Below, piece by piece: positions 28,211 through 48,093 of a stretch of 64,000 nt of DNA (positions are counted from its first letter, which is position 1; the number at the start of each line of letters is the position of its first letter). The stretch spans positions 7,942,501 to 8,006,500 of the forward strand of contig NZ_MEHJ01000001.1 of NCBI RefSeq assembly GCF_001746415.1, in the 5' to 3' direction. Origin of the DNA: Streptomyces agglomeratus (GTDB taxonomy: Bacteria; Actinomycetota; Actinomycetes; Streptomycetales; Streptomycetaceae). A program made the position numbers and the translations under genes. The notes beneath the pieces are model-generated. The model was not told the origin of the DNA, did no database searches, and was given only the letters and a program-made list of their open reading frames with translations.

Positions 28211-28490
28211 GGGGCATCTCCTGTCGGTGAGAGGGCGGCACGGTGCTCGGCGCGCAGGCGGGCCAGGGTCCGCCGCCCGCGTTCGACCAGCTCGGGGTCA
28301 CCGTGGGCGGCGCCGTAGGCAATCCCGCTCACGGAATCCAGAGCTGCGTCGATGACGAGGCGGGCCTGTTCGGCGGCGGTCAAGGGCCTGCCGTACCCGG
28401 CCAGAAACGCCTCGAACAGGTCCGGGCGGCCGGCCCAGGTGTCGGACAGGCGGACCAGATCCCGTACGGCCGGTCCCGGCTCGCTCCGCT
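28207..28490 (-). pseudogene. Kinase (APH-type) C-terminal part of split Nudix-kinase gene
   Basis: The frame SEPGPAVRDLVRLSDTW, then AGRPDLFEAFLAGYGRPLTA and VSGIAYGAAHGDPELVERGR, is the C-terminal lobe of an aminoglycoside-phosphotransferase-type kinase. It continues the protein interrupted at 46928. Removing the island and one CGCT core joins VIDFER to SEPGPAVRD in frame, giving 481 residues with the Nudix domain in front. The stop overlaps the start of the GNAT-Nudix gene. Confidence 0.88.
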
Positions 28491-28590
28491 TTGTTGTCGC
28501 ACTCACCGTGTCCCCCGCAGGTCGTGTCGCTTTACGGGAGAGCTGGCTCTCGAGCCCGTGTTGCGCCACCGCGAGCCGTCATGTCTCGTT

Positions 28591-28632
28591 CGCCCCTCCG
28601 GGGCGTGATTGAGATCACGCCCCGGAGGGGCG
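28591..28632. terminator. Perfect 19-base inverted repeat at the island edge
   Basis: CGCCCCTCCGGGGCGTGAT (28591-28609) pairs perfectly with 28614-28632 across a TGAG loop. There is no T run, but such strong stems act as bidirectional terminators in Streptomyces. It lies 100 bases inside the left end of element 2, between the island boundary and the PKS gene. Confidence 0.6.
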
Positions 28633-28831
28633 GATCGGCCGGCGGCTGTCCAGTCCGTCAACTCGGCTCACTCCTACGGCAACGTGCGCGCTCAGACACG
28701 GGTACTCAAGGCCGTTGACACAAGATCGTCGATCAAGCGCGACTTGTGCAGCTGTTGGCCGTTATACGGGCGGCCCCCTGCTTGTTTTCGGGGCGATCAG
28801 TCCGTTGCTGCCTACCTCCTGGAGCCTTGTC

Positions 28832-31800
28832 ATGACAGTAGAAATTCAAGCTTCCGAGCCGCTTCCAGGCTCGGTGTCCGGGGGTCTGCCCGGAGATGCG
28901 GTGGCTGTGGTGGGCGTCGGCCTGCGCCTTCCTGGTCGGATTCGGACCTTGAACGGTCTGTGGGCAGCCCTTGAAGGGGAACGGGACTTGGTGGGGGAGG
29001 TGCCCGCTGACCGGTTCGACACCGGGGCCTTCGTCGCGGCCGACGCCGGGCGGGCGGGTAAGTCCTACACAGGCGCGGGCGGGTTTCTCGATGATGTGGC
29101 GTCGTTCGACGCCGGCTACTTCGGTATCGCTCCCAAGGAAGCCACCCGTATCGATCCTCAGCAGCGGCTCCTGCTGGAGTGCGCGGTCGAGGCGTTCGAC
29201 GACGCCGCGATCGATCCGGCCACGCTGGCCGGCAGTGACACAGCCGTGGTGATCGGGGTCTCCTCTCACGACTACTCCGATCTGCAAGCGCGGCGGCTGC
29301 GCACGTACAACCCCTACACCATGGGGGGTTCGGCAGCTTGCAATACCGCCAACCGCCTCTCGTACGTGTTCGACTTCCAGGGCCCGTCGAACGCGGTGGA
29401 TACCGCCTGCTCTTCGGCTCTGACGGCGGTGCACCAGGCGTGCGAGGCGCTGCGCATGGGGCGAAGCCCGCTGGCGATCGCCGGCGGAGTGAACGTTTTG
29501 CTGAGCCCCGCGGGTTTCGCGGGCTTCTCAGGTGCCTCGATGCTGTCGCCGACAGGGCGGTGCCGGCCGTTCTCGGCGTCGGCGGACGGGTACGTGCGCT
29601 CGGAAGGCGCGGGGGTGCTGCTTCTGAAGCCGTTGTCCGCGGCGCTGGCTGACGGGGACCGGGTGCATGCGTTGATCCTCGCGAGCGGCATCAATGCCGA
29701 TGGCCGGACTGCTGGTCTGGCATTGCCCAGCGCCCGTTCACAGGCGGCGTTGCTGGAGCGTGTGTATGCGAGCGCGGGCATCAAGCCGAGTGATGTGGCG
29801 TATGTGGAGGCGCACGGCACGGGGACCCAAGCGGGCGACCCGGTCGAGTGCGAGGCATTGGGCCGGGCCCTGGGCGCCGGCCGTACCGGCGGCCCGCTGC
29901 TGGTGGGATCTGTGAAGTCCAACATCGGACACATGGAGTCCGCCGCGGGTGTGGCGGGCCTGCTGAAGGGGCTGTTGGTGCTGCGTGAGGGCAGGATTCC
30001 TCCGACGCTGCACGGTGTGCCGCAGAACCCCGCGATCGATTTCGCCGGTCTGGGGCTGGAACCGGTTGTCGAAGCGCGGCCGCTGCCGGAAGCCGGTAGG
30101 GGTGTCGTGGGCGTCAACTCCTTCGGCTTCGGGGGCGCCAACGCCCATGTCGTCCTGGCCGCGCCCCCCGCCCCCGCCCAGTCGTCGGGCCGGAAGGTGG
30201 TCGCGCAGGGCACCCGTCTGCCGGTGGTGGTCTCCGCCCGCACCTCCCGGGCGCTCACGGACGCCGCGCATGAGTGGGCCGCTCACTTCGAAGACCAGGC
30301 GCAGAAGCACGCCGAGGGCGCCGACCGGCGTTTCTGCGATGACGCGTTCACCGCCAGCCGCCGTAGGGCGGGGCGGGAGCAGCGCATCGCCGTACTTGCC
30401 GAAGGCGCCGTCGAGGCGGCGGCCGCTTTGCGCTCTGTCGCTTCGGGCAGGCCGGCTGCGGCAGTCGCCGTGGAGGAAGCGGTCGTGCGAGGTCGCGTGG
30501 CGTTCGTCTTCAACGGAAACGGTGCCCAGTGGGTTGGGATGGGGGCCGAGCTGCTGGGCGGGGACGCGGCCTTCGCTGCCGAGGTGGCGGCTGTGGATCG
30601 TGAGTTGGCGCCTTTGCTGGGGTGGTCGGTGCAGGCGGAGCTTTCGGCTTCGGCGGATCCCGGGCGCTGGGAGCGGACCGAGGTGACGCAGCCCCTGCTG
30701 TTCACCGTGCAGGCCGGTGTGGTCGCAGCGCTCGCCGCGCGCGGGATCGAGCCGCTCGCGGCCATGGGGCACAGCGTGGGCGAGGTCGCGGCAGCCTATT
30801 GTGCGGGGGCGTTGACGCGATCGCAGGCATGCCGGGTGGTTGCCGAACGCAGCCGCGCCCAGGCGGCGACGGCGGGCGCGGGCCGGATGGCAGCGGCAGG
30901 TCTCGGTGAGGAGGCGGCGCGGAGGCTGCTGGCTGACAACGGGTTTGCCGAGCGCTTGGTGGTGGCCGCCGTCAACTCGGATCAGGATGTGACGATCGCG
31001 GGCGAGGCACAAGCGTTGGAAGCGCTCGGTGCGCAAATGGATGCTGAGGGCGTCTTCTTCCGCGACTTGGGCCTGGACTATGCCTTCCACACCCCCGCGA
31101 TGGACAGGATCCAGAAGCCGCTGGCCGAGGCGCTGGCCGACCTGCGTCCGGACAAGTGCCGTATCCCGCTGATCTCCACTGTGACGGGACGCTCGGTGGA
31201 GGGCACGGAGCTGGACGCGGCGTACTGGTGGCGCAATGTGCGTGAGCCGGTTCGCTTCGCTGAAGCCGCCGGGGTGCTGGTCGACGAAGAGCTGCAGTGC
31301 GACGTGCTGGTGGAAGTGGGCCCGCATCCCGTGCTCAGCGGATATCTGCGTCGGGTGGCGGCGAACAACGCCCAGACCGTCGCCGTCATCGCGACGCTGT
31401 CTCGCATCCAGCCCGGCCCGGCAGCCCTCGACGCGGCACTCACCCGTCTGCTGGCCGTCGGTGCGCAGGTCGACTGGAAGGTCTTCTTCCCGCAGCGGGG
31501 AGTGGTGACAAATCTGCCGTCCTACCCGTGGCAGCGCGAACGGCACTGGAACGGCCACTCGGACTGGTGGCTGGAGGAGTCCGGGCAGCAGACCTCCGCC
31601 CCGGTGCGACAGCCGCTCCTGGGGACTCGCCAACCGGTCGCGGAGCCCGTGTGGCGACAGCAGATGAATCCGGATGCTCTGGCGTGGATGGCCGACCACA
31701 CCGTCCAAGGAGCTGTCGTGTGGCCGGCGGCGGCCTTCACCGACATGGCACTGGCCGCCGGCTTCGAGGTGTTCGACGCACCCGCCGAGATCACCGGCCT

Positions 31801-34800
31801 GACCTTCGACAGGGCCCTGGTGCTGCCGTTCGACGACCCGGACATGGACGTTGCCCTTTCAACAAGCTTGGATGCTGATGGTGGCTTCGCGGTGAGCAGC
31901 CGCAGCGGCGAGCAGCAGGACTGGAACGAACACGCACGCGGACGTGTGCGGCGTCTGCTGCGCGACCAGCCGCAAGCCCTCGACCTCGGCGAAATCCGCT
32001 CCCGGTTGACCGGGCTGCTGTCCCCCATGGAGCACTACGCCGCCTGTGCACGCGCCGGTCTGCCCTACGGCCCCGCTTTCCGGCCGCTGACCGCCCTGCA
32101 CACCGGAGCGGGCGAGATTCTCGCGGAGTACGCGGCGACGATGGAGGCGGCCCCCGGCCACCAAGCCCACCCGACTGTTCTCGACGGTGCCTTGCAGGCG
32201 GGTATGCCCCTGCTCGCCGCCGTCAGCGACGACTCGTGCCCCTATCTGCCCTCGGGAATCGAGACGGTGCGCTGCTGGCACCCGATGCCTGAAAGGGGGC
32301 TTGTTCACGTGCGGGCCCGGCTGGTCACCACGCAGGAAGCCGTCTGGGACATCACTGTCAGCGACCTCGGCGGAACGGTCGCCCTGGAACTGCTGGGCTG
32401 CCATCTGCGCCGCTTCGAGGCGGGCGCCAGGACCCGGCCCCAGCAACTGACCGAAGTCCTGCGCGCCGCCCCCCTCCCGGCAGAGCCCGCGCGGCCGGCG
32501 CCTCTGCCCGCGCCGACGGATGTCTTCGCCGCCTGTGCACCGGAGATGGCCACGCTCACCGCAGCGTGGACGGCGAGTCCCTACGACCGGTTCCGCACGA
32601 GGGTCATGGAGATGACCGGGCACTTCGCCGGCGCCGCCGTACGCGAACTGCTCCCCGGCGCCCAGACGGTATCGGTGGAGGCGCTCATCGCCTCCGGTGT
32701 GGACGTCAAGTACACCCAGCTCCTGCGTACCCTCCTGGGCACGGCCGCCGAGCACGGGGTGCTGCGAAGTGAGGGACCGGGCCGCTGGCGCCTGGCGAAG
32801 AAGCCCACCCCGGAGCCGCTGTTCGCCGCGCTGCTCGGTGACTTCCCCGGTGAGGCCGCGACGGCGCTGGCCTACGGGGCATGCGGACAACACCTCACGC
32901 GCGTCCTGCGAGGGCAGAGCGACCCCCTGGAACTGCTGTTCTCCGATGCCGATTCCATGGCCAACCGCTTCTACGACGGCGCGCCCATCCTGGCCTACCA
33001 CGGCCGGCTCGCAGCGACGCTGATGGCGAGCACCATCGCCCGCTGGCCGCAGGACCGCCCCCTGCGCATCCTGGAAGTCGGCGCGGGCACCGGCGCCACC
33101 ACAGCCGCCATGCTGCCTCACCTGCCGCGCGAGCGTGCCCACTACACCTTCACCGACATCTCCTCCGCCTTCTTCCCGCAGGCCAAGAACCGCTTCGCCG
33201 CGTACGACTTCGTCGACTATCGGGTCCTGGACCTCGAATCAGACCCCGTAGAACAGGGATTCACCCCTTCCTCCTTCGACCTTGTGGTGGCCTCCAACGT
33301 CCTGCACGCCACGACCGACCTTGCTGCCACGCTGCGCCGAGTTGCGGATCTGCTGGCCGACGGCGGACACCTGCTGGCGGTGGAGAGCCACAGTCACGAA
33401 GCTCTCGCACCGGTCTTCGGGCTGCTGGACACGTTCTGGTCAGCGACCGACCGTGAGCTGCGGCCCGACGGGCCGCTGCTGGCACACGACCGTTGGAAGG
33501 ACTTCCTGCACGAGTGCGGGTTCACCGGCACCGCCCAGACGGGAAACCCGGCGTCGTTCGCGCTGAGCGACCACTCCGTCCTCCTCACCGCCCGGCGTCC
33601 TCGCTCCCACGCCCCCGCCACAGCGCCCCGCACCGAGGAGGTCCTCGCCCGCCGGTGGCTCGTGGGCGCCCTGCCCGGCCAACGCCAGGACCCGAGCCCG
33701 GCACAGAGCTCGGTGCTGGCCGCCCTGCGCGACCGCACAGCCGCCGCCGTCCAGACGACGTCTGTCGACGACACCACCGCGTCGTGGAAGGGGCTGCTGT
33801 GCGCGGAGCAGCCACCGACCGACCTGGTTCTGTTCACTGAGGAAGGCACCGCCGCGTCACCGGCCGAAGCGACCGACGCAGCGGTACGCCACCTCGCGGT
33901 CTTCCGGGCCCTCAGTGCCGCCTGCAAGCAGCGCACCGACACCCGTGACCTGACCGTGTGGCTGATCGCCACCAGTTCCCACACCACCGTGTCCGCGCCA
34001 CCTGCGGCGGAGCATGGAGGCGCGTGGGGAGGAGCGCGCACTCTGGCGAACGAGCACCCAGAACTGACGGTCCGCAGGATCGCCCTCACGGGTGCGCGCG
34101 ATGAAGGGCAGCACAAGGAGCTCGCTGAACGCGTGGTGGCGGAGTTGCTGGCCCGGCCGGAGGAAGACGAGGTACTGCTCACCCCCGCCGGCCGGTTCGC
34201 CACTGTGGTGCGCCCCCTGTCCCCGCCGGTGACCGGGAGCGCCTCCAGCAGCTACACCCTCACCCTGGACGACCCCGGCCTCCATTACCGGCTGGCCTGG
34301 CGGCCCGCCGAGGTGCCCACACCCCACGCCGGCGAGATCGTGATCGCTGTCGCGGCGGCTGCCCTGAACTATCGCGACATCATGATCGCCACAGGCCGTG
34401 TCCCGGCCGTTGCGTCCAGCCGGATGCCGTACACCGCGGACGTCGGCCTCGAATGTGCCGGAGTGGTCAGTGCCGTGGGACCCGGCGTCACCCAGGTCGC
34501 TGTCGGCGACCGCGTGGCGGGGCTGGCGCGAGGCTGCTTCGGTACGTATGCGCTTGCGCGTGCCGACAGGGTCATGGCGCTGCCGGCGGAGATGAGTTTC
34601 GCCGCTGCCAGTACCCTGCCCGTGGCTTTCGCCACGGTGCACCACAGTTTGAACCACCTGGCCCGCCTGGCTCCCGGTGAGACGCTCCTGGTCCATGGAG
34701 CTGCCGGCGGGGTCGGGTTGGCCGCTCTGCAGTACGCGCGTCGCGCCGGAGCCCAGGTCATCGCGACCGCCGGCACACCGGCCAAACGTGACCTGCTGCG

Positions 34801-36358
34801 TCTGCTGGGCGTCGAACACGTGCTGGACTCACGCCGACTCGACTTCGCCGAGCAGGTCAAAGACCTCACCGGCGGAGCGGGCGTCGACGTGGTCCTCAAC
34901 TCGCTCGCGGGGGAAGCCCTGGTACGCAGTGTGGGCCTGCTCAAGCCCCACGGCAGGTTCCTCGAACTCGGCAAGCGGGACTTCCTCCAGGACAGCTCGC
35001 TGCCACTGGCCCCCTTCCTGCACAACCTGACCTTCTTCGGGGTTGATCTCTCCCCCATGATGAGCGGGCCCTCGCCCCTGATGGACCAGCACCTGAGCAC
35101 CCTCACCAAGGCCGTACACGCCGGCGACTACACGGCGCTGCCCTACCGCAGCTACCCCGCCCACCGCATCGACGAGGCGTTCACCAACCTCCAGCACTCC
35201 CGGCACACCGGCAAGATCGTGGTCACCTTCGACAGCGAAGTACCCGTACGCCGCCCCGCCGGCCGGCCGGTACTGGACCCTGACGCCACCTATCTCATCA
35301 CCGGCGGCCTCGGCGGATTCGGCGCCGCGACCGCACGCCACCTGGCCGCCCGGGGGGCGCGCCATCTCACCCTGATCAGCCGCCGCGGCGAGAACGCACC
35401 CGAAGCCGCCCAGCTCCTCGCCCACCTGCGCGGCTGCGGCACCGAAACGACCGTCCATGCGGCGGACATCAGTGACGAAGCCGCACTGCTCCGCGTGCTG
35501 GACGACGTCGACACCTCCGGGCGCCGGCTGGCGGGCATCATCCACGCCGCCATGGTCCTCGATGACGCACCCCTGGCCGAGCTGGGCGACGACCGCCTGC
35601 GCGCGGTCCTCGCACCCAAGATGACCGGCGGCCTGCTCCTGGACACCCTCACCCGCGAGCGTGCACTGGACTTCTTCGTCGTCTACAGCTCGGCGGCCGC
35701 CCTGGCAGGCAACATCGGGCAGGCGGCCTACGTCGCGGGCAACCTCGTCCTGGAGGGATTGGTCCGGGACCGCCGAAACGCGGGTCTTCCCGCCCTTGCT
35801 GTCCAATGGGGAGCCATCACCGACAGCGGATACGTACACCGCACCGGCCGCTCGGAGGAGATGACGGCGATCGGCCTCGGTCATCTCACCGCCGCCGGCG
35901 CCCTCAACCGCCTGGACGAGCTGCTGAGCCACCCCGACACCGCCACCGCGGCCGTCGGCTTCTTCGACTGGGACAGGCTCCAGCAACACGTGATGCCCAC
36001 CCTGACCGCCCCCCGCACGGCCGGCCTCCTCAAGGGCCGGCGCGACAGTGACACCGCCGATCAGTGGCGGGACACGCTGGCCGCCACCAGCGCCGACGAG
36101 ACCGTGCGACTGGTCGAAGACAAGCTCGCCGAACTCCTGGCCGTCGTCCTCCAGACAACCCCAGAGCGCATCGACCGCTCCCGTCGGCTGGACCTGCTCG
36201 GCGTCGACTCACTCATGGCCGTCGAGCTGTCCAGCGCGATCAGCACGAGCATCGGATGCGACCTGCCCGTGGTCGAGCTGACCGGGGCCGGCCATCTGAC
36301 CGACCTCGCACTCCGCGTCCTGGCCCGCCTGGGCAACCGCACCCACACCGGCAACTGA
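28832..36358 (+). CDS. Highly reducing type I polyketide synthase with C-methyltransferase
   Basis: A single-module PKS of 2508 residues with domains in the order KS-AT-DH-MT-(structural KR)-ER-KR-ACP. KS: DTACSSA, EAHGTGT, KSNIGH. AT: FNGNGAQWVGMG, GHSVGE and a YAFH specificity motif, intermediate between malonyl (HAFH) and methylmalonyl (YASH) types. DH: HTVQGAVVWP and VLDGALQA. MT: ILEVGAGTGATT. ER: HGAAGGVGLAA. KR: GGLGGFG with Ser, Tyr and Asn in YSSAAALAGNIGQAAYVAGN. ACP: GVDSLM. This full set in one module resembles fungal-type iterative synthases, so repeated use to make a methyl-branched, fully or variably reduced chain is inferred. The ATG at 28832 follows CTCCTGGAGCC. There is no integral TE; a separate thioesterase follows. 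Confidence 0.93.
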   Translation: MTVEIQASEPLPGSVSGGLPGDAVAVVGVGLRLPGRIRTLNGLWAALEGERDLVGEVPADRFDTGAFVAADAGRAGKSYTGAGGFLDDVASFDAGYFGIAPKEATRIDPQQRLLLECAVEAFDDAAIDPATLAGSDTAVVIGVSSHDYSDLQARRLRTYNPYTMGGSAACNTANRLSYVFDFQGPSNAVDTACSSALTAVHQACEALRMGRSPLAIAGGVNVLLSPAGFAGFSGASMLSPTGRCRPFSASADGYVRSEGAGVLLLKPLSAALADGDRVHALILASGINADGRTAGLALPSARSQAALLERVYASAGIKPSDVAYVEAHGTGTQAGDPVECEALGRALGAGRTGGPLLVGSVKSNIGHMESAAGVAGLLKGLLVLREGRIPPTLHGVPQNPAIDFAGLGLEPVVEARPLPEAGRGVVGVNSFGFGGANAHVVLAAPPAPAQSSGRKVVAQGTRLPVVVSARTSRALTDAAHEWAAHFEDQAQKHAEGADRRFCDDAFTASRRRAGREQRIAVLAEGAVEAAAALRSVASGRPAAAVAVEEAVVRGRVAFVFNGNGAQWVGMGAELLGGDAAFAAEVAAVDRELAPLLGWSVQAELSASADPGRWERTEVTQPLLFTVQAGVVAALAARGIEPLAAMGHSVGEVAAAYCAGALTRSQACRVVAERSRAQAATAGAGRMAAAGLGEEAARRLLADNGFAERLVVAAVNSDQDVTIAGEAQALEALGAQMDAEGVFFRDLGLDYAFHTPAMDRIQKPLAEALADLRPDKCRIPLISTVTGRSVEGTELDAAYWWRNVREPVRFAEAAGVLVDEELQCDVLVEVGPHPVLSGYLRRVAANNAQTVAVIATLSRIQPGPAALDAALTRLLAVGAQVDWKVFFPQRGVVTNLPSYPWQRERHWNGHSDWWLEESGQQTSAPVRQPLLGTRQPVAEPVWRQQMNPDALAWMADHTVQGAVVWPAAAFTDMALAAGFEVFDAPAEITGLTFDRALVLPFDDPDMDVALSTSLDADGGFAVSSRSGEQQDWNEHARGRVRRLLRDQPQALDLGEIRSRLTGLLSPMEHYAACARAGLPYGPAFRPLTALHTGAGEILAEYAATMEAAPGHQAHPTVLDGALQAGMPLLAAVSDDSCPYLPSGIETVRCWHPMPERGLVHVRARLVTTQEAVWDITVSDLGGTVALELLGCHLRRFEAGARTRPQQLTEVLRAAPLPAEPARPAPLPAPTDVFAACAPEMATLTAAWTASPYDRFRTRVMEMTGHFAGAAVRELLPGAQTVSVEALIASGVDVKYTQLLRTLLGTAAEHGVLRSEGPGRWRLAKKPTPEPLFAALLGDFPGEAATALAYGACGQHLTRVLRGQSDPLELLFSDADSMANRFYDGAPILAYHGRLAATLMASTIARWPQDRPLRILEVGAGTGATTAAMLPHLPRERAHYTFTDISSAFFPQAKNRFAAYDFVDYRVLDLESDPVEQGFTPSSFDLVVASNVLHATTDLAATLRRVADLLADGGHLLAVESHSHEALAPVFGLLDTFWSATDRELRPDGPLLAHDRWKDFLHECGFTGTAQTGNPASFALSDHSVLLTARRPRSHAPATAPRTEEVLARRWLVGALPGQRQDPSPAQSSVLAALRDRTAAAVQTTSVDDTTASWKGLLCAEQPPTDLVLFTEEGTAASPAEATDAAVRHLAVFRALSAACKQRTDTRDLTVWLIATSSHTTVSAPPAAEHGGAWGGARTLANEHPELTVRRIALTGARDEGQHKELAERVVAELLARPEEDEVLLTPAGRFATVVRPLSPPVTGSASSSYTLTLDDPGLHYRLAWRPAEVPTPHAGEIVIAVAAAALNYRDIMIATGRVPAVASSRMPYTADVGLECAGVVSAVGPGVTQVAVGDRVAGLARGCFGTYALARADRVMALPAEMSFAAASTLPVAFATVHHSLNHLARLAPGETLLVHGAAGGVGLAALQYARRAGAQVIATAGTPAKRDLLRLLGVEHVLDSRRLDFAEQVKDLTGGAGVDVVLNSLAGEALVRSVGLLKPHGRFLELGKRDFLQDSSLPLAPFLHNLTFFGVDLSPMMSGPSPLMDQHLSTLTKAVHAGDYTALPYRSYPAHRIDEAFTNLQHSRHTGKIVVTFDSEVPVRRPAGRPVLDPDATYLITGGLGGFGAATARHLAARGARHLTLISRRGENAPEAAQLLAHLRGCGTETTVHAADISDEAALLRVLDDVDTSGRRLAGIIHAAMVLDDAPLAELGDDRLRAVLAPKMTGGLLLDTLTRERALDFFVVYSSAAALAGNIGQAAYVAGNLVLEGLVRDRRNAGLPALAVQWGAITDSGYVHRTGRSEEMTAIGLGHLTAAGALNRLDELLSHPDTATAAVGFFDWDRLQQHVMPTLTAPRTAGLLKGRRDSDTADQWRDTLAATSADETVRLVEDKLAELLAVVLQTTPERIDRSRRLDLLGVDSLMAVELSSAISTSIGCDLPVVELTGAGHLTDLALRVLARLGNRTHTGN

Positions 36359-36435
36359 ACTCCCCCCGAGGCCGCGCCGAGCCGGTGCGGCCCCGGGCCC
36401 CTCGCCTGCCCCTCGCCTCCTGAACGGACACAACC

Positions 36436-39213: not shown

Positions 39214-39304
39214 GTGTCCTCCAAGGGGACTCGAAATCGGTCCCGCACCGTGCGGGGAACCGGAGGTGATCGCCCTGGTCCTCAGAGACGGTGAACGACG
39301 AAAT

Positions 39305-39330: not shown

Positions 39331-39339
39331 ACCGGTACT

Positions 39340-40323: not shown

Positions 40324-40393
40324 CAGATCTCGTCCTTCCCAGCCGTGTCGGCGGCGACTTGGTCGATCTCGGCGAGAACCCGTTCGGCACGGG

Positions 40394-42310
40394 TCACGCT
40401 GACTTCCAGCCGGGCCCGCTCGGTCTTCTGCCGGCGGCTGAGACGCCGATGAACACCTGGGCAGTCTCCCGCGATTCCTCCCACACCGGGCGATGGCACG
40501 GATGATGCGTGGGCTCGTGGAGCCGTCCGTCCACGCTGGTGAAGAGACTGATCAAATCACGGGCGCCGGGACCGGACGGCATGATCCCACTCTGATAGTC
40601 GCGGTAAACGTCTGTCAGAATGCCGATGTTGCGCTCTTCCTCGAGCTCGTTGATCTCGGCGAGGAACTTCGCCTGAGCACCACCCGGTCGGGCCGCGTAC
40701 CCTTCCGTAGTGGCCACAGACAGGTGCTTGAGCTGCAGTTTTGCAGCGAGAAGGCCGCCAGGACGGTAGGCGATCTCGACAGCGAGGGTGCGCCGGAGTG
40801 CCCGTGGCGTCACCGCCCCCTCCGGGATGGGGGTCAGTCCCAGCCGCTGCCCTGCCGGCCCGTTCACCCACGTTCTGAAGTTCTGGTACGTCGTGTCGCA
40901 GAAGACCGGATGGAACAGTGAGGTGCCGGGCGCCGCGTCTGGGCCGAGGAGCTGCTCGGCCACCTCAATCGCTTCGTAGACCTCCCGGGTCACCACCCAC
41001 TCGTCCCGGACGCCGCCGAGCGGTTGGCCCTTGATGAGCTTGCCTGCGAGCCGGTAACGGAAGAGTCCAGGAGCGATCTCCTGCGGTGGCTGACGGCAGC
41101 CGACGACCAGTTCGCCCAACTCGCAGTGGCGCATCCCGACGAGTGCGGCCAGTGCCAGGCCGCAGGCCGTGGCCAGGAATCCGACCAGGAACTTCAGATC
41201 AAGGGAGAAGAGTGGCTGCGTCCAGGTGACGTGTCCCTGCCCGTCGGCGCGCTCTACCTCGGCTGCGTTACGGCCGTACGGAGCGCAAGCCCCGACAAGG
41301 GCATGGGCCCGCTCCAGGTGAGGGCGGAGTTCCGGAAGCCAGGCGCCCCGAAACTGCCTGATCCCGCATTCCCGAGCGAGAGCGCTGAGGGAAACAGCAG
41401 CCAGCGGGTCGTGCTCCTCACGCAATCGACGAACACGCGCTGCCTTCACCGAGTCCTGTGTCATCAGTTCCAGAGGTTCTTCGCTTTCAATCCGGCGCTC
41501 CAGATTGCGCAAGAACGCCCCGAGTCCGGGGTGGGTGGTGGCGGCGATGCTGCGGTCCGCGGCCTGACGTACTCGTTTCGCCTCGGCTTCTCGCAGGATG
41601 TGCGGGGCCAGCGTCTGGATCACGTATAGCACCGCGGCGAGCAGGGGCTGCTGAACCTCGGACGGCAGCGGCTGCACCTTGTTCGCGCCGGCGAGTTCGG
41701 CTGTCCGGCCCGAGCCTGCAGCGGCACTCGCGCCGTTGAAGGGGTGCAGGTCATCTCGGAACCTCAGCCCGGTGAACAGCTCCCGGTACTGCGCGAGCCC
41801 GATCACCGTGCCCATCGCGACGGCTCTGGTCGACGGGGAGTCGGCGACCACTTCACCGTCGTCGCCGATCCGCTCGCCCCGGAAGTCCACATACGCGGTG
41901 CAGTGGTAACTGGTTACCTCGCCCAGATCGGTGATGCCCTGGTCCATGAGCCACTTGAACCACCGTATGAGCTCGGACAGCTTCCCGTGGCAGGTGGTCA
42001 GCGTCTGCACGGTGCGTTCGGCATGGGCGAGGTCACGAACGGCGTCGTGGCGAGGTGCCATCAGCGCCGCGATGTACTCCTTTGCGGTCAGTCTCCACTC
42101 CCTGTTGGTGATCGGTGTGAAGTCGAGGGCGCGCTGGTTGGGCCGTAGATAGGCCGGCAGTCCGATCACAGCGTCGAAGGGCCACCGGTCCTCGTCGAAG
42201 TAGGGGCCCGTCACACTCAGCGGCAGGGCGAAGCCGAACAGAGGACACAGCTCGACGTCGGCGAAGGGCGAGACCTCGTGCCTCGGTCTGGGGTTCAACG
42301 GGGGCATCAC
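40394..42310 (-). CDS. Tyrosine recombinase C of element 2
   Basis: A 638-residue recombinase. The catalytic set is box I ALVGMRHCELGELVV (Arg), box II region TPRALRRTLAVEIAYRPGG and LQLKHLSVATTEGYAARPGG (His and Tyr). It is the equivalent of the TnpB-like gene of element 1, with the same RRTLA...RPGG block, but the overall sequences are strongly divergent, so the two elements are not recent copies. Start ATG 42310 overlaps the stop of B (ATGA). A C-terminal cysteine tail as in element 1 is not obvious. Confidence 0.8.
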   Translation of the reverse strand: MMPPLNPRPRHEVSPFADVELCPLFGFALPLSVTGPYFDEDRWPFDAVIGLPAYLRPNQRALDFTPITNREWRLTAKEYIAALMAPRHDAVRDLAHAERTVQTLTTCHGKLSELIRWFKWLMDQGITDLGEVTSYHCTAYVDFRGERIGDDGEVVADSPSTRAVAMGTVIGLAQYRELFTGLRFRDDLHPFNGASAAAGSGRTAELAGANKVQPLPSEVQQPLLAAVLYVIQTLAPHILREAEAKRVRQAADRSIAATTHPGLGAFLRNLERRIESEEPLELMTQDSVKAARVRRLREEHDPLAAVSLSALARECGIRQFRGAWLPELRPHLERAHALVGACAPYGRNAAEVERADGQGHVTWTQPLFSLDLKFLVGFLATACGLALAALVGMRHCELGELVVGCRQPPQEIAPGLFRYRLAGKLIKGQPLGGVRDEWVVTREVYEAIEVAEQLLGPDAAPGTSLFHPVFCDTTYQNFRTWVNGPAGQRLGLTPIPEGAVTPRALRRTLAVEIAYRPGGLLAAKLQLKHLSVATTEGYAARPGGAQAKFLAEINELEEERNIGILTDVYRDYQSGIMPSGPGARDLISLFTSVDGRLHEPTHHPCHRPVWEESRETAQVFIGVSAAGRRPSGPGWKSA

Positions 42311-43923
42311 GCGGTGCGCTCCTCGGGGTGCAGGGGGATCTCGTCATCGGTGTCGGTGATCACCGTGGCCAGACGCGCAAGCTCGGCCGGGTCGTAGGAG
42401 GTGAGGACCTGCTCGATCCGGTGCACGTACGGCCCGAACACGGCCATGAACTGTGCGGCAGGCATCTGCTGCCACTGCCGTGCGAAGAACGCCTTCATCC
42501 GCAGCAAGTTGGCGGCGTGTCGCGGCGCGAACAGCGAGAGAGGGCACAACAGACACACCCATGGACGGGCCGGGCACGGCTTTCCCTTCGGACCGTGCAG
42601 TCCCGCGAGCGGGTCCGCACACGCCGCGACGAATACATCACGCTGTCCGCCGACCAGTTCGGCGATTGCCGCGTCGTCCAGCCCGAGCCGGGAGACGAGA
42701 TCAGGCAGGCTGCCGGCCAGTTCCGCCAGATCGTCGTCACTGAGCACCGTCGGCGAGAGCGCCTTACGCAGAAGATCACCCTGAGCCTCCTCTACGATCG
42801 CCTCCAGAGCGTCCTTCTGCGCGGGAGTCGCGGCCGTCAGGTAGTGATCACCTTCGACCCGTGGGCTGTGGTTCGGATCGATCCGCCCGCGCCCGCTGCC
42901 GAACCACCGTTTGCGGTCCCGGTGAGACTCGAACGAGGTCCGGATACTGTGCCGATGGATCCGAAGAGGCTTGCCGTCGGCGCCCTTCAAGCCCGCCCGT
43001 ATCACCCACCGCTGGATGGAATCGTGGAGCGACGCTCCCGTCCTCCAGACGCCGAGCTGGGTGTATTCGTGGCGCAGCCACAGCTCCGAGCCTTCGGTCT
43101 CCGCGGCGAAGCGGCGCGAGACGGCGGAATGCTCAAGCCACCGTTCCACCAGCCGCACGGCCCGCGGGGACAGCGTCACGCTCTCCTCGGACGTCCGGCC
43201 TTTGAGGTAGTTCACCAGCATCGTTGCGTCTCCGGCCCACTCCAGGTCCTCGACTCCCAGATCGACGATGCCGTCGGGGACGATGCCGGTGTACGCGCCG
43301 AACAGCAGCTGGTAGGCGATCACCACCGACGGGGAGGGGAACAGTGCAGTGCAGGCACTCTGTACGGCAGCGCCGCGGCCCATTCGGTGGTAGGTCATCG
43401 TCGGTGTCCACCCGGCCCTCAGCCCCAGACTGACCGCAGTTTCTGGCCCATGGCGGACCATCCACCAGCACAGATTCTCGTATGACCAGCCGTGCTGATA
43501 GGGGTCCCGGCCGGTCTCGGCCGCGGCACGGGCCTGCCGGAACTGCGACCATGCTTCCTGGATCTCTGTCCGGCATGTCTCCTGCAGCCTGCTCCAGACC
43601 GCCTCGTCGTACGGCAGCAGTGGCTTGGAGTTCCGTCGGCGGCGGCTCTGGTTGAATGCCCGACCGCCCACCAGTTCGCGGACCTCGGGACGCAGCACCC
43701 CGGTGTCCTGGTCAAACGCCGCGAGCATCCGACGGATCATCGACTCGTGAACGGGTCTGGTCATCCAGAGCTGCTCGACGAGGGCAGGACGAGTGAGCTC
43801 CGCAGCGCCACCGGCATGCCCACGCTTAGCCATTGCCGCAGCGAATAGACGAGTTGTCCGTACGAACTCACGGACAGTGGTCTCCGCGTCCACCTGGCCG
43901 TGTGGATGTATCAGTCCGATCAA
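42307..43923 (-). CDS. Tyrosine recombinase-like protein B of element 2, degenerate
   Basis: A 538-residue protein with a TTG start at 43923 that overlaps the stop of a short leader frame (TTGA). Box II is conserved (RIHRHSIRTSFESHR) and NHSPRVEGDHYLTA supplies His and Tyr. The box I position reads GAYTGIVPDGI, without the arginine. A cysteine motif, CPARPWVCLLCPLSLF followed by APRHAANLLRMKAFF, lies near residue 460. Because the leader frame also looks coding, the natural protein may begin at 44030 and be broken by a frameshift. Its partner in element 1 also lacks the box I arginine. Confidence 0.72.
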   Translation of the reverse strand: MIGLIHPHGQVDAETTVREFVRTTRLFAAAMAKRGHAGGAAELTRPALVEQLWMTRPVHESMIRRMLAAFDQDTGVLRPEVRELVGGRAFNQSRRRRNSKPLLPYDEAVWSRLQETCRTEIQEAWSQFRQARAAAETGRDPYQHGWSYENLCWWMVRHGPETAVSLGLRAGWTPTMTYHRMGRGAAVQSACTALFPSPSVVIAYQLLFGAYTGIVPDGIVDLGVEDLEWAGDATMLVNYLKGRTSEESVTLSPRAVRLVERWLEHSAVSRRFAAETEGSELWLRHEYTQLGVWRTGASLHDSIQRWVIRAGLKGADGKPLRIHRHSIRTSFESHRDRKRWFGSGRGRIDPNHSPRVEGDHYLTAATPAQKDALEAIVEEAQGDLLRKALSPTVLSDDDLAELAGSLPDLVSRLGLDDAAIAELVGGQRDVFVAACADPLAGLHGPKGKPCPARPWVCLLCPLSLFAPRHAANLLRMKAFFARQWQQMPAAQFMAVFGPYVHRIEQVLTSYDPAELARLATVITDTDDEIPLHPEERTA

Positions 43924-44030
43924 TCCGGCTGCTGGGGGTTCTCCTCCTGGGGCAGCTCTACCGTCGCGGTCGTGCCTTTGGTGAACCAGCAGACCAGCCG
44001 CGCGGGCTCTTCCATCAGTCGAGCGGCCAT
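43920..44030 (-). CDS. 36-codon leader frame between recombinases A and B
   Basis: The ATG (44028-44030) overlaps the stop of recombinase A as TGATG. It encodes MAARLMEEPARLVCWFTKGT and a Glu/Pro/Gln-rich end, and stops at a TGA that overlaps the TTG start of B. It could be the true N-terminus of B separated by a one-base frameshift, or a coupling ORF. Confidence 0.45.
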   Translation of the reverse strand: MAARLMEEPARLVCWFTKGTTATVELPQEENPQQPD

Positions 44031-45529
44031 CAGACGATCACCGCCTCGTCCTCGAACTCCTCATCAGCCTCGGCCTCGGCGAACAAGTAGAACTCATGCC
44101 CGGCGCGTTCATACGCCTCGCGGTAGATCCGGGTCATGTCGAGACGGCGTAGGTACGCTTCCGTGGTGAGGACACTTGTGTGTCCAAGGAGGTCACGCAG
44201 CACCATCATCGGGTCCGCCTTGCCCAGGTACAGAGCCAGTGCCGCATCCGTGTCGGTCGCGTGGACCATGCGAGCCGCTTCCATGAAATGGCCGCTGACC
44301 AGCCACTCCAACGTCCTGATCGCAAAGGTATGACGGAGTCGGTGCGGGGCAGTGTGAGGGAAACGGGGCTCGAAACGCTCCCGGATCCGGGTCGAGGTCC
44401 GCTCGAAGACCGTGGCCCAAGCTGTGAAGGGGGCCCCGCCCGCCTGCACCCCCAGCAGCATCGAGCCCCCATCGGGGGCCACCAGGCGTCGCCGCTCGGA
44501 CGGCGTTAGCGCCGCCCACTTCACCCGGGTGCCATTCACCCGCCCGCCCCGGGCGTCAGCCTCGCTCGCCACCAGCGGCTCACCCCACCGGGCCGGCGGC
44601 TTCCAGCGCGAGCCGACCGTGGCCAGGGGCCGGACCGTCGTCCGGTACCGGTGCACGCGAGCCAGACTCTTGTAGGACGTCCACGTCGTACGGAACTTGC
44701 GCCCCTTCGTGACACCCTCGGGTACGGAGAAGGAGATCGGCAGCGCGGTCGGCTTCGGGGGGAGCGGGGGGACCTCCACGTCCAGCAAGTAGGTGAACTC
44801 TTGCGACCGCAGCCCCGAGGAGAGCACGAAGTCACCCACGGCCGCGTTGCGCGTGAGCGTCCGTCCGCGGTACGACGTGTCGGGTGATCCATCCGGGCGG
44901 AGCCCTGCCAAACCCAGAACGAACATCTCCGCGAAGTCGGCCTCGAAGTAGCGGATCGTGACATGTCGCTTCGGAGTGCGTCGGCGGGCCTGGTTGACTT
45001 GCTGGGTCCGCACATGGTCCCCGTACATCGAGACGGCTTCCTTGTAAGTGAAGGGCACCGCGGGTGCGTAACTCTCCTTGTCCGCCCACGTGTAGAAGCG
45101 CCACAGGATGCTCATCTGCTGGTTCCACGTGGTGGCCGCGAGCCGACGCCTGAGTGGCCCGCACGACCTGTCGGTCGCGTACAGACTCAGTGCGTCTTTC
45201 AGCCGGGCACGCTCGTCGAAGACGCCGATCCCCAAGGTCGCAAGGAACTCGCACCACTCCCGCAGAGTCCGGCCGTAGAACTCCCATGAGTTGGGGGCGG
45301 GGACACCGTCCAGCGGCAGCCACCGCAGCCAGGTGTTGATCGCCACGGTGTCGCGTACGCCGCGCTCATCCTCGAAGAGAAGGTCGTCATCGACGAGGAC
45401 CGGCATGAGCTCGGATATGACGGGTCGGCCGCTGAGCCCCCACGACCTCCAGCCCTTTGAGCTAAAGAAGATCATCTGCATGGCCGGGACGGTACGTGGG
45501 CAGGGCTTATTCAAAGTCAGATTGATCAT
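44030..45529 (-). CDS. Tyrosine recombinase A of element 2
   Basis: A 499-residue recombinase with a full catalytic set: box I LSSGLRSQEFTYLL, box II HRLRHTFAI and LLGHTSVLTTEAYLR. A SAM-like core-binding domain occupies about residues 80-180. It is the first gene of the leftward recombinase operon. The C-terminal acidic tail (AEAEADEEFEDEAVIV) is unusual. Start ATG 45529 lies about ten bases from the end of the ISAs1 insertion, which probably separates the gene from its promoter at the element end. Confidence 0.87.
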   Translation of the reverse strand: MINLTLNKPCPRTVPAMQMIFFSSKGWRSWGLSGRPVISELMPVLVDDDLLFEDERGVRDTVAINTWLRWLPLDGVPAPNSWEFYGRTLREWCEFLATLGIGVFDERARLKDALSLYATDRSCGPLRRRLAATTWNQQMSILWRFYTWADKESYAPAVPFTYKEAVSMYGDHVRTQQVNQARRRTPKRHVTIRYFEADFAEMFVLGLAGLRPDGSPDTSYRGRTLTRNAAVGDFVLSSGLRSQEFTYLLDVEVPPLPPKPTALPISFSVPEGVTKGRKFRTTWTSYKSLARVHRYRTTVRPLATVGSRWKPPARWGEPLVASEADARGGRVNGTRVKWAALTPSERRRLVAPDGGSMLLGVQAGGAPFTAWATVFERTSTRIRERFEPRFPHTAPHRLRHTFAIRTLEWLVSGHFMEAARMVHATDTDAALALYLGKADPMMVLRDLLGHTSVLTTEAYLRRLDMTRIYREAYERAGHEFYLFAEAEADEEFEDEAVIV

Positions 45530-45537
45530 TTCGTGTT

Positions 45538-46795
45538 GCAGGTCAGGACAGTCCGAGCAGGTCCAGTGGGCGGGTGAACGGTGTGTAGGAGACCTCCCGC
45601 AGTCCTGCGGCGATGCTGCGGCAGCCGGCGTCCCGAAGGGTGTTGATCGCGAGGTTGCGCAGTGTGGCCATGTTCTCCGGCCCGTGCCCGGTGCGGATCT
45701 TGGAGGCGTCCTCGGCGAACGTCGTGTCCCTCACGTGGTGCACCGCCTCGATGCCCCACTGGGATCTGGCGAGACGGCCGATCCGCTGCGGCGATGCCTC
45801 ACGTGCCGTCATATCCGTGATCGCGTAGAGGGTCTGCCGGGTGACGCGGCCGGTCCGTATCTCGGTGCGATGCCGGAGGATCTTCACTGCCTGGACCACG
45901 TGCGGGAAGTCCAGGTGGAGGCCGGTGACGGTGAGCGTGCGCACCGAGCGGGTCTCGCGCCGCCCGTGCCCGCGCTCGCGGTCGTAGCGGCGGGCGGTCA
46001 CTTCCTTCCAGGGCAGGGCTTTGATCGCCGCGTGCAGTTTCGGCTGGTTGCCCTTGACCACCAGCAGGTAGTGCGCCTTCTTCACCTCTACCAGCCACTT
46101 CGCGTGCTCGCGCTGGGTGTGCAGGGCATCGGCTGTCACCACGGTGCCGGCCAGGTCGAACGGGGCCAGCAGGGCGGTGAACGCGGAGATCTCGTTGGTT
46201 TTGTCCGGCACCCGCAACTGGCTGACGACACGACCGGCGGCTGTGACGGCGGCCAGCAGGTGGGCGGCGGGCGCGGCATCGGTGCGCGAGCTACGGGCGC
46301 TCTTGCCGTCCACCGCGACTGCCTGCGTGCCGGCCGGGCAGTGGCCGAGCAGGTCGGCGAGCCCGCCGGGACACACCAGGACCAGCACCCGGCGCAGGGT
46401 GGAAGGCGAGGCCGGCCGGCGCACGCCGAGCGGCCCGCGCGCTAGAAACCCCAGGCGGGCGAGGGTGTCTTGGGGTGCGTGGCGGGCCCACTGCCCGATG
46501 GCCAGATAGGAGCGGGCGCCGGCCAGGACCGCGCAGGCGGCGGTCAGCAGGACCGAGGCCAGGGTGTGCCGCCGTCCGCGCCGGTGACGCGGATCGGGCA
46601 GAGCACTCAACCGGGCAGCCCTGTCCGACAGCTCACGCTGCTGACGCGAGGGCGGCTTGATCAGGCAGACGGTGGCAGACTGGCGGCACATCGGAGCTCC
46701 GGTGGTCGGGCGACTTGGTAGGTCCCCTTGATCATCGGAGCTTCGTTGCATGCCTGGCTGCCGTGGTGAAGGTTCGTCACATGCCTGTGACCTGC
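45538..46795 (-). mobile_element. ISAs1-family insertion sequence
   Basis: An element of about 1.26 kb bounded by GCAGGTCA (45538-45545) and its complement TGACCTGC (46788-46795). Exact ends were judged by eye. It has landed between the right end of element 2 and its recombinase operon. A remnant of a related transposase lies at 57790-58148. Confidence 0.7.
45543..46691 (-). CDS. ISAs1-family transposase
   Basis: About 382 residues, from ATG 46691 (an ATG at 46751 would add 20 residues). It has the DDE-type features of the family: LPDPRHRRGRRHTLASVLLT near the N-terminus, the first Asp in QAVAVDGKSARSSR, the second in TVVTADALHTQREHAKW, and the Glu region RLARSQWGIEAVHHVRD. The C-terminal LRNLAINTLRDAGC block is typical. 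The frame is uninterrupted, so the element may be active. The stop codon overlaps the terminal repeat. Confidence 0.9.
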   Translation of the reverse strand: MCRQSATVCLIKPPSRQQRELSDRAARLSALPDPRHRRGRRHTLASVLLTAACAVLAGARSYLAIGQWARHAPQDTLARLGFLARGPLGVRRPASPSTLRRVLVLVCPGGLADLLGHCPAGTQAVAVDGKSARSSRTDAAPAAHLLAAVTAAGRVVSQLRVPDKTNEISAFTALLAPFDLAGTVVTADALHTQREHAKWLVEVKKAHYLLVVKGNQPKLHAAIKALPWKEVTARRYDRERGHGRRETRSVRTLTVTGLHLDFPHVVQAVKILRHRTEIRTGRVTRQTLYAITDMTAREASPQRIGRLARSQWGIEAVHHVRDTTFAEDASKIRTGHGPENMATLRNLAINTLRDAGCRSIAAGLREVSYTPFTRPLDLLGLS

Positions 46796-46927
46796 TGGTT
46801 CTTGAAGCCGCCCGGACTATGAATCAGCCCTGGGTACGTGGGGGACAGCAGAGACGGCAAAGCGCAAATGCGAGTCAGGGTCTCGCTTGCTCCGGGTATG
46901 GGACATGACCACTAAGCAGAGACAATG
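46796..46927. other. Right terminal segment of element 2
   Basis: This 132-base stretch lies between the ISAs1 copy and the CGCT core. Reading inward from the core, TTGTC and TGTCCC occur at both ends of element 2 (spacings 15 here and 10 at the left end), a weak hint of recombinase arms. No gene is present. Confidence 0.35.
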
Positions 46928-48093
46928 CGCTCGAAGTCGATTACCGCCACGACGACCTCAAGGTCGTCCGTCTCGTCGGCGGCGTCAGGGGTCGAGAGAA
47001 TGTTGCGGAGCTGGAAATCGCCGTGGGTCTCCACCCACTCCAGCGGTGGCAGGTCCTTGGCCTGCCGGACGAGGTCGCGGACGAACTCCTCATCGCTCGG
47101 GAGCAGATGAGACCGCGCCCCGGCCAGGTGCCGGTCGGCCTTGGCGACAGCCGGGCCGCTGCCGGCAGGAGCGGGCCGTGGGGGAGAGGCCTGGTGGATG
47201 CGGCGGGCCAGCACGCCGATCCGTTGGAAGACCGCCCTCTCCCGCTCCGGTGCCAGAACGGTGCCGTGCAGCGGGCGGCCCGGCACCGCGGTGAGGACCA
47301 CCGCCCGCAGGGTCTCGTCGGCGGCGACCAGCCACGGCGCGGCCGCCCCCAGCTTCCGCGCCCAACCCCGTAGCCCCCGCACTTCCCTGCCGTGGAACCG
47401 CTCGTTCTGGTGGACCTTCACGTACCAGGTGCCGCCCTGGACGCCGTGGACCCGCCACACCCGGCTCGCCTCGCGCGCCCACGACGTATCCGTCCAGTGC
47501 CCGATCCGGCCGACCGACCGCTCCGCGAACTCCACGACCGCAGCGTCGGGACGGGCGGCGGACGCCTGGCCGGTCACGTCCGGCACAAGGCGCAGCCGGT
47601 CGGCGCCGGAGTCGAAGGCGATTCTGTCGCCGGGCAGTTGGAAGTGCACGGCGAGCCGTGCGCCGGCGCTGTAGGCGTCCAGGCCCGCACGGCAGTACGC
47701 CACCATTGGGGCGGGCAGGGCGTGAAGGGGCGCCCAGTCCATCGCGTCGCAGATATCCGGCTCGGCGATCTCTGGCTCGCCCTTCCACCGCCGGACCTCG
47801 AAGAAGTGCCCGGTACGACTGGCGCCTCCGGGGCTGCGGTGGTGCACGGTCACGGCGGACCGCACGTCGGCCGGGTCGATGACGACACCGGTCTCCTCCC
47901 GCGCCTCGCGGATCAGGGCGGTGACCACGTCCTCATGCGGACCGTCCAGATGCCCCGACGGCAGATGCCACAGGCCGGCGGCGTACACCTGCCCGGCCCG
48001 CCGCGACAGCAGCACCTGCGGACCGTCGGCGGACTCCCGGCGCAGGATCAGGTGGACGTCCACCGGCTCGGTGTGCCGCTGCCCGCCGCTCAC
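46928..48093 (-). pseudogene. Nudix-kinase (APH) fusion, N-terminal part
   Basis: A bifunctional protein interrupted by element 2. Residues about 1-140 are a Nudix hydrolase with the box GHLDGPHEDVVTALIREARE followed by ETGV. Residues about 160-388 are an aminoglycoside-phosphotransferase-type kinase with the catalytic loop WVETHGDFQLRNIL (the family HGDxxxxN) and the metal-binding strand VVAVIDFER. The frame runs only a few codons into the element to a TAG at 46912. The last 94 residues are at 28207-28490. The GTG at 48093 overlaps the stop of the upstream methyltransferase (GTGA). The pairing of Nudix with a small-molecule kinase suggests metabolism of a phosphorylated nucleotide-like compound. 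Confidence 0.9.

Follow-up and report, generated by a model that had tools for sequence, protein, structure and literature searches.

The block at 28491-46925 (~18 kb) of the analysed window, a stretch of 64,000 nucleotides of a Streptomyces chromosome, is very probably a single site-specific transposon with tyrosine recombinases that belongs to a four-gene family of actinobacteria and inserted at the VIDFER codons of a Nudix-phosphotransferase (Nudix-APH) gene with a polyketide synthase (PKS) operon as cargo. It follows the SE plan, which is akin to that of GInts and Tn554. The initial annotation had proposed a Tn554-like transposon; a mobile element of this sort, or of the SE or GInt sort, is supported, and both uninterrupted sites and family termini now place the PKS operon between genuine ends. 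Streptomycetes trade natural-product clusters, for which plasmids and conjugative elements are commonly cited as vehicles. The boundaries of the present vehicle are defined to the base, and its engine is of known kind.

Insertion site in the Nudix-phosphotransferase gene

The block separates the 3' part of the host gene (28207..28490, minus strand) from its 5' part (46932..48093, minus strand, with the putative start codon of the initial annotation). Joining the flanks with one CGCT copy restores a single open frame. The Nudix-APH gene was searched in 199 genomes of the genus, 179 of which gave a match at E <= 0.001, and the window flanks were aligned to the best 19 non-self loci. The gene is whole in five other genomes, and its 3' part continues in these uninterrupted homologues (L081, L082, L084, L086, and L087); the remaining 14 loci are partial flank matches, which were left unjudged. 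Both flanks align in four of the 19 loci, namely L081, L082, and L084 (91.9-93.0%) and L086 (79.5-82.2%), with the left alignment ending at 28490 and the right one beginning at 46923-46928. In L087, the junction is also read through and the gene is uninterrupted. The clean split of the gene, the open frame upon joining, and the existence of uninterrupted genes with matching flanks, all anticipated in the initial annotation, are thus borne out. The ends that it had placed at 28490 and 46928 also agree with the alignments, exactly on the left and within 46923-46928 on the right, the family termini lying at 28491 and 46925.

Termini of the transposon

The far-end terminus on the PKS side (28491..28535, plus strand) starts with TTGTTGTCGCACTCACCGTGTCCCCCGCAGGTCGTGTCGCT, while the tnpA-side terminus (46881..46925, minus strand) reads inward from TTGTCTCTGCTTAGTGGTCATGTCCC. 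Models of the two ends were built without the window sequence, from 13 relatives (40 columns) and 16 relatives, respectively. The far-end model scores 42.3 bits at 28491 compared to 8.3 bits for the next best of 127,922 positions, and the tnpA-side model 30.6 bits at 46925 compared to 12.3 bits for the next of 127,954 positions. The far ends of the relatives were initially found with a model from six seeds, one of which was the window. In a control with the five other seeds, the best matches of the 13 relatives are unchanged and 28491 is still the top position in the window (19.8 bits vs 12.7 for the next). Columns 23-40 alone, which had no part in locating the relatives' ends, give 20.5 bits at 28491 vs 16.3 for the next position. 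With termini of one transposon family at both edges, the PKS, thioesterase, and exporter genes lie inside a bounded element.

Both ends score above 14 bits in 21 of the 80 named loci, at a spacing of 6.1-14.6 kb. The far terminus is common to 13 of 18 relatives; its motif is weak in L070 and L057, was not found in L063, L066, and L071, and is absent from the copies in genome G055, whose ends were defined by comparing those copies. This patchiness was counted against our preferred explanation. So was the pairing of the window's two ends, which share TTGT and TGTCCC and do not form a significant inverted repeat, since 999 of 2000 random pairs score equally high by local alignment. The 40-column far end and the 24-column near end provide tools to scan genomes for cluster-bearing family members, in which the cargo could be read exactly.

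The recombinase module

The engine consists of four genes on the minus strand: tnpA (44030..45481), an RHRHY tyrosine recombinase whose MQMIFF start is the same in two relatives; tnpB (42307..43923), a Tfp/GinC-like tyrosine-recombinase-like protein without the first catalytic Arg, whose relatives of 578 aa begin ~40 codons farther upstream; tnpC (40394..42310), a large tyrosine recombinase with the catalytic R, K, R, H, and Y present; and tnpD (39841..40323), a small coiled-coil protein of 160 aa in the position of TnpC, Srap, or GinD. The initial annotation was right about three recombinase-type genes and a TnpC-like gene. Its "Tn554 order" is inexact, as Tn554 has two recombinases and TnpC, compared to four genes here.

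Among 20 fetched relatives, A, B, and C match in all (C partially in L067) and D in 19. Alignments were made of the window and hand-picked rows from the named loci (27 of 43 for A, 31 of 41 for B, and 31 of 43 for C), the omitted rows being mostly near-duplicates and short frames. R, K, H, R, H, H, and Y are invariant in 28/28 TnpA sequences. In TnpB, the Arg is missing at the expected first place in 32/32, as judged by eye, while K, R, and Y are retained. TnpC displays R, K, R, and Y in 32/32 and H in 31/32, with Arg replacing the His of HxxR. Pfam and NCBIfam gave an integrase match for TnpA alone, which is weak, and none for TnpB or TnpC. Profiles of the three families searched against PDB sequences found no relative for A and B and chance-level matches for C. 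At the fold level, TnpB resembles Cre (best E 2.7e-4, with a TM-score of at most 0.27 by query length among the matches listed) and XerH. For TnpC, the best fold match was not significant (Tn1549 integrase, E 0.086), an outcome that we also counted against the preferred explanation. In the proposed mechanism, TnpA and TnpC would cut and join both ends, assisted by TnpB and TnpD.

An ISAs1-family IS of 1332 bp (45501..46832, minus strand) separates the right end of the element from tnpA. Its inverted ends, CAGGGCTKATTCAWAGTC, are imperfect, and it is flanked by a duplicated 10-bp sequence, GGTACGTGGG (45491-45500 and 46833-46842). In addition, the window tnpC lacks, behind its catalytic part, a stretch of ~70 residues that includes four conserved Cys, and its last residues are in a different frame; among the named loci, shortened frames are seen for 2 of 43 TnpC and 1 of 41 TnpB. 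Both the IS and the loss of the Cys block had been overlooked in the initial annotation. Because the conserved Cys-rich block is gone and the IS separates tnpA from its end, this copy may now be stranded. This is a guess, given that the catalytic residues of tnpC are intact despite the damage.

A 6-bp core and its proposed exchange

A 6-bp core containing one mismatch describes the shared sequence better than CGCT does. The hexamer on the tnpA side, TGCGCT (46926..46931, plus strand), is that of the uninterrupted site in four of five relatives, the fifth having TACGCT. The far-end hexamer, TCCGCT (28485..28490, plus strand), occurs in none of the five uninterrupted relatives, and most empty sites differ from it by one base. 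L064 has GCTGGG on the tnpA side, as do L062 and L065 with apparently the same target gene, and CATCGG on the far side. The three copies in G055 have CGCGCG, CGCGCG, and CGAGCG on the tnpA side and CGCGCG on the far side in all. A rule by which the target hexamer is kept on the tnpA side and the incoming hexamer is placed opposite thus appears to fit the window and L064, and the G055 copies are consistent with it. The circle would be excised together with the 6 bp adjoining the tnpA end; at integration, here into the VIDFER codons of the Nudix-phosphotransferase gene, the target's own 6 bp would stay on the tnpA side while the imported 6 bp would land on the far side. The two hexamers would then be a readable tag recording the origin of the element.

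Proposed cargo and alternative explanations

The operon between the two ends comprises a single-module reducing type I PKS of 2508 aa (28832..36358, plus strand; KS-AT-DH-MT-ER-KR-ACP by Pfam, catalytic motifs by eye), a thioesterase with a GHSLG motif (36436..37224, plus strand; PF00975, E 1.1e-32), and a DHA2-type MFS exporter (37221..38792, plus strand; PF07690, E 3.7e-50; TIGR00711 at 228 bits, just under the 230.2 cut-off). Pfam thus confirms the families given in the initial annotation, and the predicted pathway is complete-looking. Between the exporter and the recombinases lie a cold-shock protein gene (39010..39213, minus strand) and a putative FxLD-system methyltransferase remnant (39460..39735, plus strand; TIGR04364, E 3.4e-11 over 37 residues, far under the whole-protein cut-off).

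The closest relative found is in Actinacidiphila oryziradicis, where 5 kb of the module is 88.7% identical at the DNA level. It occupies the same VIDFER codons in another APH (kinase) gene, which picks up again 3 bp past the far end. Homology with the window stops at 39824, 17 bases past the tnpD stop, and nothing in the A. oryziradicis element (30.7 kb) matches the PKS, thioesterase, or exporter of the window. G055 contains three ~7-kb family copies that are 99.4-99.8% alike, which suggests recent movement of the family, and L065 has a cyclophane RiPP maturase as putative cargo.

The PKS operon would have come in as cargo of the transposon. Unlikely, yet the most serious of the alternatives, is that the four-gene element came first and, already in place, acquired the operon afterwards through a homologous or illegitimate recombination event in the stretch from tnpD to the far end, so that the element frames the PKS and never moved it. 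The PKS family indeed also occurs outside such elements (G174, G049, G366, and G262), and the cold-shock gene and methyltransferase remnant between exporter and tnpD are a sign of a piecewise cargo history. However, a PKS-TE-MFS operon in identical order is present in the genome G049, where TnpB has no match, indicating a self-contained unit. The operon edges (28536-28831 vs 38793-39840) share no exact word of at least 12 bases, direct or inverted, and one direct 11-base word, thus offering no obvious repeat for a second entry. Moreover, the same slot holds ~25 kb of other cargo in A. oryziradicis.

A second copy of the PKS-bearing element was sought. Across 295 genomes of the genus, the thioesterase-exporter DNA gave no long match exceeding 70% identity apart from the window itself. 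Of 386 genomes of 85 genera, a set overlapping the former, five match it at E <= 1e-120; one of these is the genome of the window, and the others match at 68-70%. Over residues 1250-1750 (501 compared), PKS proteins of Streptomyces sp. Qhu-G9 and NPDC005865 show 94% and 90% identity. A TnpB search listed eight clusters at E <= 1e-195; four carry organism names, none of which is Qhu-G9 or NPDC005865, and the cluster members are hidden. L139 was rejected as a PKS carrier, its match being the enoyl-reductase part alone (32% over 277 residues). In the genomes searched, no second one was found with the window's PKS inside such an element at another site, and this too was counted against the preferred explanation.

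The integration of an ordinary conjugative element, prophage, or plasmid that happened to carry the PKS would account for the presence of tyrosine recombinases. It is nevertheless extremely improbable and, largely refuted by gene content, was dropped: the family-searched longer ORFs (PKS, thioesterase, exporter, four module genes, and IS transposase) include no relaxase, conjugation, replication, or phage structural gene, and the module and termini are common to the many small elements among the named loci described above. An assembly error or chance pseudo-junction, with nothing in its favor, is hardly credible and was likewise dropped, as the contig spans 8.3 Mb and the borders agree with family termini and uninterrupted sites.

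It is possible, if still short of probable, that a distinct class of transposons with four genes and tyrosine recombinases resides in actinomycetes, docking at short codon motifs of host genes via a 6-bp tag that is copied and bearing exchangeable cargo that includes natural-product clusters (the PKS here, the cyclophane RiPP maturase in L065), and that this class is a general vehicle spreading biosynthetic pathways among streptomycetes.

Comparison with known systems

Related elements are known to transport resistance genes, and one has a toxin pathway as cargo. The plan of the module matches the SE elements best, and GInts and Tn554 in part; the likeness to the TnpA, TnpB, and TnpC of Tn554 is one of description.

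In the parts of their description used here, the SEs are strand-biased circularizing integrative elements that leave no empty donor site, such as Vibrio SE-6283 and SE-6945, described from Gammaproteobacteria and bearing 13-19 bp imperfect inverted repeats (PMC10214605). Likened by plan, they share with the window's element the order recombinase, recombinase-like protein, large recombinase, and small protein, a 6-bp "fingerprint" at the intA side with a "footprint" opposite, selected target sites, and no mobilisation genes seen (PMC10214605). They differ in being gammaproteobacterial (PMC10214605), the hosts here belonging to the actinomycetes, and may also differ in their inverted repeats, as the two ends of the window's element pair no better than random sequences.

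The 6-bp exchange rule also applies to Tn554 (PMC10214605). According to the portions consulted, Tn554 and its actinobacterial relatives, with hosts including Streptomyces and Mycobacterium, are site-specific and combine an ordinary and a long recombinase with a TnpC-type protein (PMC3414803). Contrary to the window's element, whose extra recombinase-like gene matches in 20/20 relatives, that family has two recombinases with or without TnpC, and PKS cargo goes unmentioned in those portions (PMC3414803). Like the window's element, RIT elements have three adjacent, overlapping recombinase-type genes, but these are trios with a possible catalytic motif in all three families, unlike the fourth gene and the second protein without the first Arg found here (PMC3414803).

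GInts are genomic islands with three integrases, such as the Pseudomonas Pht-PAI, whose cargo is a phaseolotoxin cluster of 22-23 genes (PMC5385486). Likened by plan, they resemble the window's element in their three recombinase-type genes plus a small HLH/TnpC-like gene (ginABCD), in cargo starting right after the fourth gene, where homology ends here, and in their ability to carry a whole biosynthetic cluster (PMC5385486). However, the first Arg is missing in their third protein (GinC) rather than the second, and their 3' ends are described as showing little conservation and imperfect direct repeats of 10-11 nt, in contrast to the far terminus shared by most relatives of the window's element (PMC5385486). 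The sections of that account drawn on here make no mention of actinobacterial GInts (PMC5385486), and our searches revealed no actinobacterial four-gene element with a PKS. The initial annotation had suggested that cluster movement by tyrosine-recombinase elements is undescribed, which is not supported given the phaseolotoxin cluster of the GInts; the mobility of clusters by such an engine is already in print (PMC5385486).

Insertion site and borders of the block

The 18.4-kb block at 28491-46925 interrupts a Nudix-phosphotransferase (Nudix-APH) gene. The window itself covers 7.94-8.01 Mb of a contig 8.33 Mb long, in a genome of 9.13 Mb. As the initial annotation had proposed, in silico excision of the block yields a single uninterrupted open frame. 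Searching 199 genomes of the genus with the Nudix-APH gene gave some match in 179. Both window flanks were then compared by alignment with the 19 top-ranking non-self loci; 14 of these have a partial flank match only and were not judged. Both flanks align in L081, L082, and L084 (91.9-93.0%) and in L086 (79.5-82.2%), all with an intact gene, and a further locus, L087, is also continuous across the junction. Against the four intact relatives, the left alignment ends at 28490 and the right one starts at 46923-46928. The homologous frame continues as VIDFERSEPGPAVRDL in L082 and VIDLERSEPGPAVRDL in L081, L084, and L086. The block is thus real, with clean borders.

A polyketide operon as probable cargo

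The polyketide pathway annotated at the end opposite the recombinases consists of one 2508-aa module (KS-AT-DH-MT-ER-KR-ACP), a thioesterase (TE), and a DHA2-type exporter. Full-length relatives of the polyketide synthase (PKS) occur in four other genomes: G174 (PKS 70%, TE 60%), G049 (PKS 58%, TE 51%, exporter 60%, with the same gene order), G366 (PKS 56%, exporter 59%), and G262 (PKS 51%). Since these relatives are located elsewhere, and the TnpB search gave no match in G049, G174, and G262 (its sample did not include G366), the operon stands as a self-contained cluster. Of 392 genus genomes, 344 show some match, in many cases a partial one, to the 500 PKS residues used as query; PKS residues 1250-1750 are 94% identical in Streptomyces sp. 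Qhu-G9 and 90% in NPDC005865.

Both ends are transposon termini

The middle recombinase, searched in 295 genus genomes, had matches in 67. Twenty loci were taken from among the best matches, three being copies in genome G055 and one a second member in the window's own genome. The fetched loci share a terminus upstream of tnpA (the right end in the window), and 13 of 18 have a common far-side terminus, L057 weakly (13.9 bits). The far-side motif was not found in L063, L066, and L071 and is weak in L070; nor is it matched by the G055 copies at their far end, which mutual comparison defines.

Terminus models built from the relatives without the window were scored on both window strands. At 28491, the far-end model scores 42.3 bits (runner-up 8.3); at 46925, the score of the tnpA-side model is 30.6 bits (runner-up 12.3). 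A possible circularity lies in the six seeds used initially to place the far ends of the relatives, one being the window's. With the five non-window seeds alone, the best matches are again the same 13 places, and the resulting model ranks 28491 top in the window (19.8 bits vs 12.7 for the next position). Columns 23-40, unused in locating the ends, alone give 20.5 bits at 28491 and 16.3 at the next position. The PKS side is thus a genuine transposon end and not the mere edge of a cluster; both block ends are termini of the transposon family. Tested as an inverted-repeat pair, the element's two ends do not reach significance: 999 out of 2000 random pairs do as well.

Cargo is exchanged around a constant engine

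Genes A, B, and C are matched in all 20 fetched loci (C in part in L067) and the small-protein gene D in 19. Scanning named genomes with the alignment of protein D confirmed 139 relatives, of which 80 were kept. The closest among these 80 is L100 of Actinacidiphila oryziradicis, with A, B, C, and D proteins 93, 90, 87, and 89% identical. It is inserted at the same VIDFER codons as the window's element, in a different APH gene. The element (L100 with L194; NZ_SUMC01000056.1) extends over 30.7 kb to its far end, and 3 bp beyond this the APH gene picks up again. The likeness to the window stops directly behind tnpD, and no match to the window's PKS, thioesterase, or exporter was found in this element at E <= 1e-5. 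By eye, its reading frames include succinate dehydrogenase-like, transaldolase-like, and other metabolic genes.

In L065 (genome G083), whose host gene is in frame at both sides (...LRVLSW and WDRGD...), a family search identified the cyclophane radical-SAM maturase AmcB (443.4 bits vs a cut-off of 425), and in L068 sugar-nucleotide dehydratase-like enzymes under the curated cut-offs. The 11.3-kb L065 element (4169-15437) has AmcB adjoining a pentapeptide-repeat protein, a second cargo of natural-product type. By eye, L063 and L066, for which no far end was found, have mercury or metal-resistance genes that may lie within the cargo; large RHS-like proteins and ATPases are also seen. In L108 (11866-18108) and L109 (11955-18233), the cargo is a single RHS-like protein of ~2080-2090 residues.

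Movement of the family and state of this copy

Genome G055 has three copies of ~7 kb (L052-L054), 99.4-99.8% identical, at different places on two replicons, one of them a 290,055-base replicon matching the S. violaceusniger Tu 4113 plasmid NC_015951 in length and position. Their target genes look related to one another and, by eye, serine-recombinase-like, and two of the loci have an additional 3.1-kb stretch in common at 75%. Judged from these sequences, the copies speak for a transposon family that moves. The second member in the window's genome (L061, G000:C1:8116927-8118513) lies some 127 kb away from the element in the window. It is 6.8 kb long, is inserted at the HLRH codons of an integrase-like gene, and has as cargo a small gene resembling methyltransferases (genes by eye).

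In the strand-biased circularizing integrative elements (SEs), according to PMC10214605, the target's own 6 bp stay at the intA side and the donor's 6 bp go to the other side, a rule stated to apply to Tn554 as well. The window's tnpA-side hexamer, TGCGCT, is that of four of five uninterrupted relatives (TACGCT in the fifth), and its far-side hexamer, TCCGCT, occurs in none. In L064, the tnpA-side hexamer is GCTGGG, as in L062 and L065 (seemingly the same gene), and the far-side one CATCGG. With the original targets deduced from relatives, both loci fit the SE rule.

Compared with relatives, the window's TnpC lacks ~70 residues, including four Cys kept in 30 or 31 of 32 sequences (with the gap in the window's), and its final residues are read in a different frame; as its catalytic residues are kept, loss of function is conjectural. 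The interval from tnpA to the right end holds an ISAs1-family IS with its 10-bp duplication; this leaves the tnpA coding region uncut if translation starts at MQMIFF, the start in two relatives. This copy may be stranded. Within the element, beside a cold-shock gene, an FxLD-system methyltransferase remnant (39460-39735) is perhaps a trace of former peptide-cluster cargo. The stretch at 57790-61832 is IS-rich, with frames resembling an ISAs1-type transposase remnant and other IS transposases (by eye).

Recombinase engine and comparison with known systems

The alignments comprise the window and hand-picked named loci (27 of 43 for TnpA, 31 of 41 for TnpB, and 31 of 43 for TnpC), the rows left out being mostly near-duplicates and short frames (two TnpC and one TnpB cut short). 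The residues R, K, H, R, H, H, Y are present in 28/28 TnpA sequences. In TnpB, the expected first Arg is missing in 32/32 and K, R, Y are kept; its predicted model (mean pLDDT 72.7) is Cre-like. In TnpC, R, K, R, Y are conserved in 32/32 and H in 31/32; structure search with a relative's TnpC model (pLDDT 79.7) gave no significant match. Conserved Cys/His blocks, metal-site-like in look, are seen at the C-termini of TnpB (alignment A2, positions 435-469) and TnpC (A3, 633-674), the latter mostly lost in the window's TnpC.

The observation is confirmed, and the core of the initial interpretation was right, with novelty and implied mobility overstated. Cluster mobility of this type, taken to be undescribed, has a precedent in the genomic islands with three integrases (GInts): PMC5385486 describes the phaseolotoxin cluster on GInts, so that carriage of a cluster by a four-gene tyrosine-recombinase element is already in print. 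Tn554-related elements of actinobacteria have likewise been published (PMC3414803). By titles and abstract beginnings, the papers listed from the open-licence literature on Tn554, recombinase trios (RIT), GInts, SEs, and ICEs have no PKS on such an element, and those on GInts and Streptomyces no actinobacterial GInts; a search of that literature for Tn554 together with a biosynthetic gene cluster found no paper. The papers found there on tyrosine recombinases and transposons with cluster cargo in Streptomyces concern conjugative elements.

The Tn554 order annotated for the recombinase set at one end is not exact: Tn554 is without the extra recombinase-like gene seen here. In GInts, the third protein is the one without the Arg (PMC5385486), whereas here it is TnpB, the second. 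SEs have the same order as this element: catalytic, non-catalytic, large, and small.
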